Source: Rheinheimera sp. 4Y26 (GTDB lineage Bacteria > Pseudomonadota > Gammaproteobacteria > Enterobacterales > Alteromonadaceae). Taken from it: a stretch of DNA of 64,000 nt. Location: the NCBI RefSeq assembly GCF_025245835.1, contig NZ_JAOBWS010000004.1:62001-126000 (forward strand), read 5' to 3'. Made by a program: the position numbers and the translations under genes. This document shows, in pieces, positions 6,425-10,214 of this stretch. Position 1 is the stretch's first letter. Every line of letters begins with the position of its first letter. The notes under the pieces were generated by a model that did not search any database, was not told the origin of the DNA, and saw nothing but the letters and a program-made list of their open reading frames with translations.

Positions 6425-7051
6425 ATGAACAATTTACCCAAACATCTGAAATTTTTTGGTCCTTTGTTGGTTTTGACCATGCTGCAGCTAAGCGCCTGTA
6501 GTAACGCCACTGCTACTGCTGTGGCGGACCAATCAGGAATGGACAGTGCCGGAGCGAAGCCACAAAACTCAGGCCGCAGCGGCTATCAGTTGCAGGTTCT
6601 CAAAAACTGCAAAGTGTTGTCGGAGCGGGCTCTGAATGCACAGGAGCTGAAGTTATATCAGGAGCTGCAACTTGCCGAGCAGCGTATGAAACAGCTGGAA
6701 GCACCACTCAAACAAATGGAAGCGGAACTGGCAACACAAAGCAAAGCGCTTGAGCATGTGAGCCGCCAGATTGAACAGCAGGCCGGGCAGCGTCAGGGAC
6801 CGGATCCAACACTTCTGCAGGCGCAGGCTGAATTTAGTAACAAAATCAGCGCTGTGGTAGACAGTCATCAGGCTGATATCGACGCACTGAGCTCACAAGG
6901 TCAGTACATTGCAACAGTGGCCACAGAATTTGAACAGCTGGTGATAAAACCCTTAGACAAAGGCAGTTATGACCAAATCAGGTTATACCCACAAAACGGT
7001 CAGGCGCCGGAGGATTGTCAGCAGGGTATGTTTTTTTCGGCCTCACGCTGA
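6425..7051 (+). CDS. Uncharacterised lipoprotein with coiled coil
   Basis: I do not recognise this 208-residue protein. It begins with a hydrophobic signal (FGPLLVLTMLQLSAC) ending in a lipobox with Cys25 as the lipidation site; residue +2 is Ser, compatible with transport to the outer membrane. Residues about 70-125 are Gln/Glu/Leu-rich with heptad-like leucines (QELQLAEQRMKQLEAPLKQM), so a coiled coil is likely. A Cys near the start of the mature domain (LKNCKVL) and one near the C-terminus (PEDCQQG) could form a disulphide. It is monocistronic, with its own terminator. A periplasmic or envelope structural role is possible but unproven. Confidence 0.8.
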   Translation: MNNLPKHLKFFGPLLVLTMLQLSACSNATATAVADQSGMDSAGAKPQNSGRSGYQLQVLKNCKVLSERALNAQELKLYQELQLAEQRMKQLEAPLKQMEAELATQSKALEHVSRQIEQQAGQRQGPDPTLLQAQAEFSNKISAVVDSHQADIDALSSQGQYIATVATEFEQLVIKPLDKGSYDQIRLYPQNGQAPEDCQQGMFFSASR

Positions 7052-7053
7052 TA

Positions 7054-7083
7054 AAAAACCACCTCCTCTGGAGGTGGTTTTGT
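7054..7083 (+). terminator. Rho-independent terminator after the lipoprotein gene
   Basis: A perfect 11-bp stem (7056-7066 with 7070-7080) and 3-base loop start three bases after the stop codon. The descending arm ends in TTT followed by TGTT. The A-run on the other side could let it work on the opposite strand as well. Confidence 0.85.
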
Positions 7084-7181: not shown

Positions 7182-7805
7182 TCAAGCGACAACTGACGCG
7201 CCGGTACGTTTTTTACCTGATACCCGGCGCAGACTCAGCCATAACAGCGGGCAAAGCATTAACAGTGCTGATGGTGGTGCAGGGACTGCCGTTGGATCTG
7301 TCACCTGTATATTGATGCCGGCCCAGTTTGGGACCAGCATATTGCCACTTTGACCGAGCAGGCCAAGGTAGCTGTTATCAAGTTCCAGCACAAAATTGCC
7401 GGCTTTTTTCACGGTAAATTTAAAGGCGGCTAACACAAATCCTTGTTGCTGCTGCGCCATTAAAAGGTCCAAATCGGCCGCCCAGTCGGCATACTCTTCC
7501 AGCGATAACTTGCCGTTGATTAAATCGTGGGCGGAATAAGCATATGAGCCAAAACCATCGTCAAAGCCAGTGCCAAAAGTCCAGCTTTCTAACCAAAGCT
7601 GCGCCGGTTGATACTGCAGCGCCAGGAAAAAGCCTGTCAGGGTTTCAGTGGCGTTTTCAACACTAAGCCAGGCGGTTACTGTATCGCCGGTTTGATATTG
7701 CTGCTGATCGGTTTCAATACGGATCAGCGCAGCGTTGGACGAGGTGCTCAGAAACAGCAAACAAGCCGTGATGAGCTGACAAAATGTGGTTTTTAATACA
7801 TTCAT
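7182..7805 (-). CDS. Cohesin-like secreted protein with PEP-CTERM-like sorting tail
   Basis: A 207-residue protein with three parts. (1) A signal peptide ends near residue 25 (CLLFLSTSSNA). (2) A beta-rich domain, about residues 26-170, opens like a cohesin: QQQYQTGDTVTAWLSVEN, then FFLALQYQPAQLWLESW, closing with GFVLAAFKFTVKKAGNFVLEL. (3) The C-terminal tail from residue 174 reads VPAPPS, then a hydrophobic stretch, then LRRVSGKKR, the motif-helix-arginine layout of PEP-CTERM substrates of exosortases. It lies 24 bases downstream of the dockerin-bearing collagenase and is almost certainly co-transcribed. The cohesin call rests on pattern similarity only. The tail extends about 10 residues past the basic cluster, longer than usual. 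Confidence 0.72.
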   Translation of the reverse strand: MNVLKTTFCQLITACLLFLSTSSNAALIRIETDQQQYQTGDTVTAWLSVENATETLTGFFLALQYQPAQLWLESWTFGTGFDDGFGSYAYSAHDLINGKLSLEEYADWAADLDLLMAQQQQGFVLAAFKFTVKKAGNFVLELDNSYLGLLGQSGNMLVPNWAGINIQVTDPTAVPAPPSALLMLCPLLWLSLRRVSGKKRTGASVVA

Positions 7806-7829
7806 TTTTTAAGTTCCTGTTCTAAGTTC

Positions 7830-10214
7830 TTACACTGCAATAGCGCAGCGAGGTAAATCACAAAGTTTGCTCATGGCCGGCATATCACGCTGGTCCACAA
7901 CCTTGTCGAGGTTAAAATCAAGATCGATGGTTAAATTGGTTTTACTGCGTAACCGCTGGTTAAACAGTTCAATATCGCGTTTATCAACGGCGCCGTTTTT
8001 ATCCAGATCGGCAGGGCGGAACGAAACGCTCTGACAAATGCCCTGACCCGCAACAACACAGTCCAGCCATTGATGAAACTCAAGGTCAAAATTGCTGCCC
8101 CAGGTTTTCAGAATGTCCTGATAGGGCGTGTAAGGCGGTAGTTCAGGTAAATCAACTTTTTGCTGGCCACAGGTCCAGACCCAGTTACCTGAGCCCCAGG
8201 CGCTGTCGTCATATAACCAGCTCCAGTTATTGGCGATAGCGTCAGGTTTGTAACGCCAGCCCCATTCAAAGCTGCAGGCTTCGGTGGAAATCGCGTATTT
8301 GGCGGCGCGTAAAGTAGGCAGCAGCGGCTGGTCGATATCAGCGCGATGTTTTTCAAACATAAAACGTACTGCAAGGTAACCCCAGTGGTAAGTGCGGGCT
8401 GTATTGCTGTTGGCGTAAGTGGTTTGGAACAACTCACTGAGCTGATAGGTTTTATTCGGTGCAACAGCCAGAGCTTTGGCATTATTGGCCGGCTGCGACA
8501 GATATTCAGCTAAGCCTTCACCCCACCAGACTGAATTTTGGGGTTGGTCGCTAAAGCTGCCCCATTGGTTAAAACGACCGTCCAGATAATGGATGTACTC
8601 GTGCTCTAAGTTCCACACTACAAAAGAAGGCGCCAGCCAGGTGGCCTGATAGGCAATAAAGCGCGCCTGGTTAGCCGGATCTGACGGAGTTCCTTCCAGA
8701 TACATTCCACCGTTGTTGGTGTCGATGCCAAAAAACTGACCGGCATAGTTCTGATAATCGCTGGAGGATTTAAAAATCACCATCTCAAGCGCAGTGTTGT
8801 TGTCGTTAGCCACCGGGCTGCTGGCATTGGTGTTAAAGGTTTGGTGGAACAGGTTTTCCTCAGCGGCCAGTTTGGTACAGATACCGGCCAGATTTTCATT
8901 GCTGATTTGCCCCTGGTACCTGAGTTTAAGGGTAGGGCCACAAGCGTGGCTGCCGGATAACACTGTGGACTCAAGATCAAACTGACAGGCATTGCCGTAC
9001 ATACTGCAATTGGCACTGTCGTAGGCTTTTACCATCCCTTGTGCATTCACCCAGGCTTGCGAGCCGGTGCCGCCATAGCTGTAGGTTGACAGCACATGCT
9101 GCAGCGCCGGACGCACTGTGTCGGCAACAGCACCACCCAGTTTGAGCATACGGCCAAGCTCAGACACCGCATCATTAAACTGATACTCGCGGGTATGACC
9201 CACCAGCCATAAGCCATCGTTTAATACAAAATCACGAAGCCTGGTGACAATTTGCGGATGGGCAGCCAGAGTTTGGTCGAGCTCAGCGCCGCCGATATTC
9301 ACCGCATTAAAATAATGGGTCAGAATTTGGGTCATACCGTTTTCTTCATAGGCCACACCCCAGTCATTACTGCGGCTGACACTCTGCGCATAACCCTGCA
9401 GCGCTTCGCTGATCCTCGGCAAAAACTGCAAGGCTTCAGTGCCTGAACTTCGCACTAAAATCAGCATTTCGTAACGCAGGAAATAATTACGTGAACTGGT
9501 GCCGTTAAACTCGACAAAATGGTCGCCGGCAAAATACTGGCTCAGGGCTTGTTGCAGGGCAGCTTTATAATTGCTGGCAAAGCTTCGGCCGGTGGAGGAT
9601 TCAGCCCAGTGCATGGCCCTTAAATAAGTCACCAGTTTTTCCAGTACCACAGCACCTGAAGCGTCCGAGCCATCAAAGCCCTGCAGTTGCTCGTTAATTG
9701 CATTGGCAATCGTCAAAATTTTGCTATCTGAAAAATGTGCGGTGCCTACCAGACCAACATCATAAAGTTTGTATAAACAACCGGTTAAACTGGCATTACT
9801 AACAGCGGCAACCAAATCGTTGCCATATAAATTCAGCAGATCGGCAGGGCTGCTACAACTGATGACTGCTGTTGTAGCATTGTCGTTTTGGGCAATTTTG
9901 TGTTGCGCTGTACTTGGCAGGTTTTGCCGGAAAAACTCCTGATCGGCCGCAGGACGCCAACGATTGCTAAGCTCAAGACCATGTTTTTCCGCGTAAATTT
10001 TGGCCTGAACTTTTTCAAATTCAGCTGGCGACATTAAACGGGGTGGTGCAACTGTGTTGCTTTGTGTGTGCTGCTGTTTTGCAGCAAGTTCAGACAGATG
10101 CTGGCGCTGTAAATCGACGCTGATTTGGCCTGGGTGTGTTAATTGCACCTGCTCCTGCGCCATAACCAAACAGCTGCTGAGTAAAAGCGGCAGCAGCTTC
10201 AGATGGGTTTTCAT
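7830..10214 (-). CDS. Secreted M9-family collagenase with C-terminal dockerin-like module
   Basis: A 794-residue zinc metalloprotease. Signal peptide: residues 1-19 (LLPLLLSSCLVMAQ). An M9N-like domain fills roughly residues 110-450. The catalytic domain has H538-E-Y-I-H542 followed by YLDGRF, and Glu570 in GEGLAEYLS lies 28 residues after H542, the spacing of the third zinc ligand in clostridial collagenase. No PKD or PPC domains follow, unlike many M9 enzymes. Instead the last 59 residues hold two EF-hand-type loops, D736-x-D738-x-N740-G and D766-x-N768-x-D770, each ending 12 residues on in Asp (747, 777). That is the duplicated calcium-loop layout of a type I dockerin. The adjacent gene encodes a cohesin-like protein. 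Likely role: extracellular collagen or peptide degradation. Confidence 0.9.
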   Translation of the reverse strand: MKTHLKLLPLLLSSCLVMAQEQVQLTHPGQISVDLQRQHLSELAAKQQHTQSNTVAPPRLMSPAEFEKVQAKIYAEKHGLELSNRWRPAADQEFFRQNLPSTAQHKIAQNDNATTAVISCSSPADLLNLYGNDLVAAVSNASLTGCLYKLYDVGLVGTAHFSDSKILTIANAINEQLQGFDGSDASGAVVLEKLVTYLRAMHWAESSTGRSFASNYKAALQQALSQYFAGDHFVEFNGTSSRNYFLRYEMLILVRSSGTEALQFLPRISEALQGYAQSVSRSNDWGVAYEENGMTQILTHYFNAVNIGGAELDQTLAAHPQIVTRLRDFVLNDGLWLVGHTREYQFNDAVSELGRMLKLGGAVADTVRPALQHVLSTYSYGGTGSQAWVNAQGMVKAYDSANCSMYGNACQFDLESTVLSGSHACGPTLKLRYQGQISNENLAGICTKLAAEENLFHQTFNTNASSPVANDNNTALEMVIFKSSSDYQNYAGQFFGIDTNNGGMYLEGTPSDPANQARFIAYQATWLAPSFVVWNLEHEYIHYLDGRFNQWGSFSDQPQNSVWWGEGLAEYLSQPANNAKALAVAPNKTYQLSELFQTTYANSNTARTYHWGYLAVRFMFEKHRADIDQPLLPTLRAAKYAISTEACSFEWGWRYKPDAIANNWSWLYDDSAWGSGNWVWTCGQQKVDLPELPPYTPYQDILKTWGSNFDLEFHQWLDCVVAGQGICQSVSFRPADLDKNGAVDKRDIELFNQRLRSKTNLTIDLDFNLDKVVDQRDMPAMSKLCDLPRCAIAV

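Follow-up and report, generated by a model that had tools for sequence, protein, structure and literature searches.

A 64,000-nucleotide stretch of the genome of Rheinheimera sp. 4Y26 (contig NZ_JAOBWS010000004.1, positions 62,001 to 126,000), here called the window, carries on its reverse strand two adjacent genes, one for a collagenase that ends in a dockerin module and one for a small secreted protein with a cohesin-like domain and a PEP-CTERM-like tail. The pair is a variant of cohesin-dockerin anchoring, recurrent as a cassette, and we give a probability of about three in four to the reading that it is a two-gene docking device and that the same cassette recurs in the genus, the order and the class with other secreted proteins. 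Both modules are recognized by homology, the two genes lie side by side across genomes, and they are co-distributed with exosortase. A first-pass annotation, made from the letters of the window, had pointed to this pair and interpreted it as a minimal display arrangement dedicated to the collagenase. The observation is confirmed and its interpretation as a display arrangement is supported, but the collagenase is one case of a cassette that is found also with other secreted proteins, nucleases and proteases among them.

In the mechanism we propose, the collagenase would be secreted across the envelope with its type-I-like C-terminal dockerin, and its single-cohesin neighbor would be secreted with a PEP-CTERM-type tail. 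The exosortase of the genome would recognize and cut this tail and attach the processed cohesin to the envelope or surface, or to the extracellular matrix. The calcium-folded dockerin would then bind the neighboring cohesin, so that the enzyme, which lacks its own anchor, would be kept at the surface. The dependence on calcium, the processing by exosortase and the place of display are steps that we infer.

The collagenase and its dockerin end

The collagenase gene (window positions 7830 to 10214, reverse strand) encodes 794 amino acids. Pfam assigns a Peptidase_M9_N domain to residues 122-287 (9354 to 9851; 58.7 bits) and a Peptidase_M9 catalytic domain to residues 375-657 (8244 to 9092; 309 bits), and the best PDB match is 7esi (E 1.3e-86). 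Alignment to the PDB match places the sequence HEYIH, which we take to be the HExxH zinc motif, at residues 538-542 (8589 to 8603). Together the M9 domains and this motif firmly predict a Peptidase M9 collagenase.

The dockerin module, delimited by Pfam, the genus alignment and profile search, spans residues 735-794 (7833 to 8012) and extends to the C-terminus. These last 60 residues hold two calcium loops, DLDKNGAVDKRD at residues 736-747 (7974 to 8009) and DFNLDKVVDQRD at residues 766-777 (7884 to 7919), each an exact 12-residue match, then a C-x4-C pair (residues 785 and 790; 7845 to 7862) and the stop. The two loops had been reported earlier at exactly these residues in a type I dockerin layout, and the open reading frames (ORFs), strand, lengths, coordinates and intergenic distance of the pair likewise proved accurate. 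Among the 107 stop-to-stop ORFs of at least 100 amino acids in the window, the collagenase alone has two such loops 20-45 residues apart.

Taken singly, the dockerin call is weak, Dockerin_1 (PF00404) matching the collagenase with an E value of 0.074 and 13.7 bits, under the Pfam cut-off of 22.9; it becomes firm once relatives are added as a profile. Both calcium loops are present in all 20 aligned genus dockerins (one of 21 ends was omitted as identical to another) and in all 28 cohesin-adjacent dockerin partners; the C-x4-C pair occurs in 20 of 20 and 27 of 28, respectively. Dockerin_1 is detected at E ≤ 0.01 in 21 of the 28 partners, and L152, L153 and L202 exceed the Pfam cut-off. The 20-row dockerin profile matched the PDB dockerins 6kg9 (E 3.5e-4), 1ohz (8.6e-4) and 1daq (9.3e-4); its top match was a serine-protease chain (1.6e-4), and several EF-hand proteins appeared from about 0.01 on. 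The dockerin enzymes of the genus stop a few residues past the C-x4-C pair and carry no sorting tail of their own.

The signal peptide of the collagenase (10158 to 10214) contains LSSC, which is lipobox-like. A lipoprotein anchor was rejected because this sequence is not conserved; two relatives described below (L009 and L010) have LSSG in its place.

The cohesin-like neighbor

The second gene (7182 to 7805, reverse strand) follows after a gap of 24 nucleotides (7806 to 7829) and encodes 207 amino acids. They comprise a putative signal peptide read from the sequence (about residues 1-25; 7731 to 7805), a cohesin core delimited by profile search (residues 27-168; 7302 to 7727) and a tail (residues 174-207; 7185 to 7286) that by eye consists of VPAPPS, a hydrophobic stretch, RR and a basic end. 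Only one cohesin-sized domain is present in these 207 residues, not the several cohesins of a scaffoldin.

As with the dockerin, the call is weak for the single protein, for which Pfam Cohesin (PF00963) gives E 0.0013 and 19.4 bits (cut-off 24.1), and firm with the profile of its relatives. A 21-row Rheinheimera profile has 15 PDB matches at E ≤ 0.1 (best 3l8q, 4.7e-12), every one of them named as a cohesin or scaffoldin, which bears out the cohesin-like domain of the first-pass annotation. A 35-row profile that adds the order-wide neighbors reached a best E value of 1.3e-20, its weak matches (E > 0.1) being mostly antibody chains and cyclooxygenase, and 20 of the 35 family members match PF00963 at E ≤ 0.1. 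The product is firmly identified as a cohesin homologue, and the pair is neither a cellulosome nor, probably, a new fold. The idea that common beta-sandwich and EF-hand-like features produce both labels by chance would account for single-sequence scores under the Pfam cut-offs and for the weak matches of the dockerin profile to some EF-hand proteins. It is disfavored, and extremely improbable, in view of the exclusively cohesin matches of the genus profile down to 4.7e-12 and the detection of Dockerin_1 and PF00963 in 21 of 28 partners and 20 of 35 cohesins.

By eye, the protein has the layout of an exosortase substrate, with a signal peptide, a short motif, a hydrophobic stretch and a basic end. 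The sorting tail proposed earlier stands to that extent, but PEP-CTERM models do not match the window protein itself (see below). Among the 35 family members, PF07589 matches 19 and TIGR02595 matches 18.

The two genes share a reading frame, which is interrupted between them by two TAA codons (7803 to 7832), so that a single read-through product is conceivable. An additional stop lies between the genes in L009.

Recurrence of the pair

A search of the same genome with the cohesin model identified a second pair (locus L001, C11:642639), over the Pfam cut-off at 25 bits. Its first member, a nuclease of 860 residues, has LTD and Exo_endo_phos domains and ends in a dockerin, which Dockerin_1 matches below the cut-off (E 0.001). 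The second, which follows it, is a 195-residue cohesin-like protein with a VSAPAT tail. Because of this nuclease pair, a device for the collagenase alone was dropped as a reading. Two other matches in the genome were discarded on identities assigned by eye, a cohesin match within an RHS-repeat-like ORF (L002) and a dockerin match within a tRNA-synthetase-like ORF (L004).

The named relatives returned by protein searches are two metagenome-assembled genomes of Rheinheimera, L009 and L010, with 92% and 73% identity, respectively, in the best-matching segment; both retain the adjacency of collagenase and cohesin. As they appear to correspond to G008:C23 and G018:C90, they add no independent evidence to the genus counts. 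Four-row dockerin and cohesin profiles each matched 21 places, in the identical 10 of 22 genus genomes. Every one of the 21 dockerins adjoins one of the 21 cohesins, which always follows it on its own strand, the two matches being 19-137 nucleotides apart; this co-occurrence in relatives supports the interpretation of the first-pass annotation.

Among 394 genomes of the order, with the best 8 cohesin and the best 15 dockerin candidates per genome scored, the cohesin profile matched 19 genomes and the dockerin profile 25. We fetched 36 of the 37 dockerin places outside the genus. At 22 of these a cohesin-like ORF lies on the same strand within 1 kb, with the dockerin first in 16 and the cohesin first in 6. 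A profile of the cohesin core, with signal peptide and tail left out, was run on 511 ORFs of 40 fetched loci and gave 25 matches at E ≤ 10. Of these, 24 lie no more than 1 kb from a dockerin ORF and are short proteins whose tail is PEP-CTERM-like or similar; the other, in L116, is a fragment at a distance of 6 kb.

At the level of the class, matches to the 35-row profile occurred in 97 of 369 genomes, in many of them at the tail only. We therefore compared the best 20 cohesin places outside the order with a control set, the first 20 listed places whose match starts at profile position 140 or later (PEP-CTERM without a cohesin part); two controls share a genome, which belongs to the window's family, and three control loci are under 7.1 kb in length. 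With models built from order-level pairs only, a dockerin ORF (E ≤ 0.02) was found within 1 kb at 16 of the 20 cohesin loci and at none of the 20 controls (Fisher 1.5e-7). The cohesin loci with no dockerin ORF within 1 kb at this threshold are L189, L204, L205 and L206; L203 comes close to the threshold.

The docked proteins are varied. Pfam domains of the 28 cohesin-adjacent partners, some of them cut by locus ends, include 13 Exo_endo_phos, 9 LTD, 4 Endonuclease_1 and 2 Peptidase_M9, as well as single members with Peptidase_M43, porphyranase and glucuronyl esterase domains. Dockerin proteins from the class include subtilase, GDSL lipase-like and glucose/sorbosone dehydrogenase-like proteins, and 2 of 10 scanned had no Pfam match. 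Gene arrangement varies as well. At L187, L188, L143, L144, L145 and L148 the cohesin gene comes first and is followed by a large protein with a dockerin near its N-terminus. One cohesin/PEP-CTERM gene lies between two dockerin genes, one C-terminal and one near the N-terminus, at L190:3310-11000, and at L198, L199 and L201 two dockerin ORFs stand beside one cohesin. From such gene orders, one cohesin socket may serve two dockerin clients.

Association with exosortase

The genome of the window encodes an exosortase (C27:11131-11871, 218 bits), as the display interpretation led one to look for, and four other PEP-CTERM proteins over the cut-off, with tails VPEP, IPEP, VSEP and VSEP. The presence of these proteins suggests active use of the sorting system. 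Within the genus, exosortase (PF09721) is present in 8 of 10 pair-bearing genomes and in 0 of 12 others (Fisher 1.4e-4). Order-wide it occurs in 93 of 394 genomes at E ≤ 0.001, 83 of them over the cut-off, and is found in 24 of 25 dockerin genomes (the exception is G264) compared with 69 of 369 others (Fisher 1.4e-15). Circularity does not enter into this result, because no sorting tail is part of the dockerin model. Outside the window's family exosortase is seen in 5 of 5 versus 59 of 354 genomes (p 1.6e-4). The corresponding overlap of cohesin and exosortase, 19 of 19 genomes, was set aside as partly circular because the cohesin model includes the tail; G041, G133, G203 and G350 were matched only at its end.

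Several results weigh against the docking reading. Binding of dockerin to cohesin is itself something we infer, and AlphaFold gave low-confidence predictions both for the cohesin protein alone (3 rows; predicted local distance difference test, pLDDT, 45.3) and for a dockerin-linker-cohesin read-through (5 rows; pLDDT 38.1). The genome counts are uncorrected for relatedness, and inside the window's family the dockerin-exosortase link is only suggestive (19/20 versus 10/15, p 0.064). The tail of the window cohesin matched neither PF07589 nor any NCBIfam model, TIGR02595 included, at E ≤ 0.1. Two genus genomes, G010 and G013, each have two pairs with PEP-CTERM-like tails, and no exosortase was found in them either by the Pfam model or with the exosortase protein of the window's genome as query, which matched two positive controls. 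Although in draft form, with about 140 and 680 contigs, these genomes are 99-100% complete, and we therefore count them against the exosortase step. Lastly, 14 of the 36 order-wide dockerin places have no recognized cohesin within 1 kb.

The two genomes without detected exosortase and the unmatched tail would fit a cohesin that binds the dockerin enzyme while its tail is a transmembrane stop only. The pair would then sit in the inner membrane or periplasm, the cohesin being a chaperone, a holding or an activity-control partner, with no exosortase display. Such an outcome has a parallel in the available parts of a report on ExeM, whose GlyGly-CTERM-tailed form remained largely in the S. oneidensis inner membrane (PMC6085458). 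We regard this as unlikely, since it leaves unexplained the 8 of 10 versus 0 of 12 distribution in the genus and the presence of exosortase in 24 of 25 order-wide dockerin genomes, obtained with a model free of the tail.

The 14 places without a cohesin could instead mean that adjacency is inherited history for which binding is not needed, the dockerin acting perhaps as an intramolecular calcium-stabilized cap or binding another target. Dockerin and cohesin distance matrices in the genus are correlated (r 0.38, 0 of 2000 shuffles), as shared descent alone would produce; we rejected this correlation as evidence of binding, co-evolution and shared descent being indistinguishable in it. Adjacency is, however, kept when the catalytic domains are unrelated, whichever gene comes first (the dockerin in 16 cases, the cohesin in 6) and whether the dockerin is N-terminal or C-terminal, variety that the history of a single locus fails to explain. 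We hold inherited adjacency to be very unlikely, and prefer docking.

On balance the surveys tilt toward exosortase-anchored cohesins as a general docking system of Gammaproteobacteria, in which small tail-sorted sockets would receive exchangeable dockerin-tagged proteins, sometimes two clients to a socket. The clients would include nucleases, collagenase, subtilase, lipase-like and polysaccharide enzymes. If this is true, acquisition of a dockerin, not of an anchor, would be enough to bring any secreted enzyme to the surface. The cassette would give a concrete and testable job, the modular display of secreted enzymes by particle-dwelling Gram-negative bacteria, to non-cellulosomal cohesin and dockerin modules and to PEP-CTERM proteins. 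It could also supply new orthogonal cohesin-dockerin pairs, in which a distinct C-x4-C marks the end of the dockerin.

Relation to known systems

In anchoring scaffoldins of cellulosomes (Acetivibrio ScaB, SdbA and OlpA type), a cell-bound cohesin likewise receives a dockerin-bearing enzyme, and cellulosomal cohesins are the best PDB matches of our profiles. The cassette differs in its Gram-negative host, in having one cohesin per protein and usually one enzyme per adjacent cohesin, in a PEP-CTERM-type tail that replaces SLH or LPXTG, and in lacking a scaffold and a cellulose-binding module on the cohesin protein. A single cohesin anchored by sortase is known in Ruminococcus flavefaciens ScaE. 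Single cohesin or dockerin modules outside cellulosomes were reportedly found in many genomes by Peer et al. in 2009; the modules here are single too, but form a defined two-gene cassette tied to a sorting system. The clostridial NagJ cohesin and hyaluronidase dockerin (PDB 2ozn and 2jnk, both among our profile matches) similarly pair secreted non-cellulosomal enzymes. The NagJ cohesin, however, sits on another enzyme, and here it is on a small dedicated tail-bearing protein.

The nuclease of the second pair shares its LTD and EEP layout with the ExeM and Xds nucleases. For Shewanella ExeM, the accessible text describes the enzyme's own GlyGly-CTERM tail as the predicted anchor (PMC6085458), whereas in the L001 nuclease a dockerin replaces that tail and the tail is on the separate cohesin protein. 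Families whose members swap sorting tails were described by Haft and Varghese in 2011 (PMC3237569, as far as its accessible portion goes), and replacement of a sorting tail by a dockerin would extend this idea of tail exchange. Tail layout and an exosortase in the genome are as in the exosortase/PEP-CTERM system of Haft et al. 2006 (PMC1569441), in the available passages of which neither cohesin nor dockerin was found.

The first-pass annotation had considered the arrangement uncharacterized. Among the open-access papers searched, we found none that joins cohesin or dockerin with PEP-CTERM; subscription papers lay outside the search and an earlier description is possible. The only one of the searched papers with both dockerin and exosortase, and also with both "cohesin domain" and exosortase, is a review of methanotrophic archaea (PMC5244752), which in its accessible part lists the domains separately and calls their role outside cellulosomes unknown.

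Other arrangements and neighboring features

Four of the 14 dockerin places without a cohesin adjoin another PEP-CTERM-like gene that the cohesin models do not match (L141:1899-2675, L146:4324-5178, L147:548-1318 and L149:4399-5238), and 10 have neither a cohesin nor a PEP-CTERM-like neighbor among ORFs of at least 90 amino acids. The four genes encode secreted proteins of 257-285 residues and lie 4 to 230 nucleotides from the dockerin gene; the L146 and L149 proteins resemble each other. They may represent dockerin receptors of another kind, unrelated to the cohesins. At L134, L136, L138, L139 and L130, where no cohesin is nearby, each large dockerin-ended protein is preceded by a secreted ORF of about 180-200 amino acids, and these ORFs are similar; additional ends, LFSR and STRG for example, are seen on some of the large proteins. 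At L197:5079-6140, tandem cohesin-like ORFs follow the dockerin gene, with a PEP-CTERM-like tail on the second only. In the window itself, a terminator-like palindrome flanked by A and T runs (7055 to 7083, by eye) lies between the cohesin gene and a convergent gene at 6425 to 7051.

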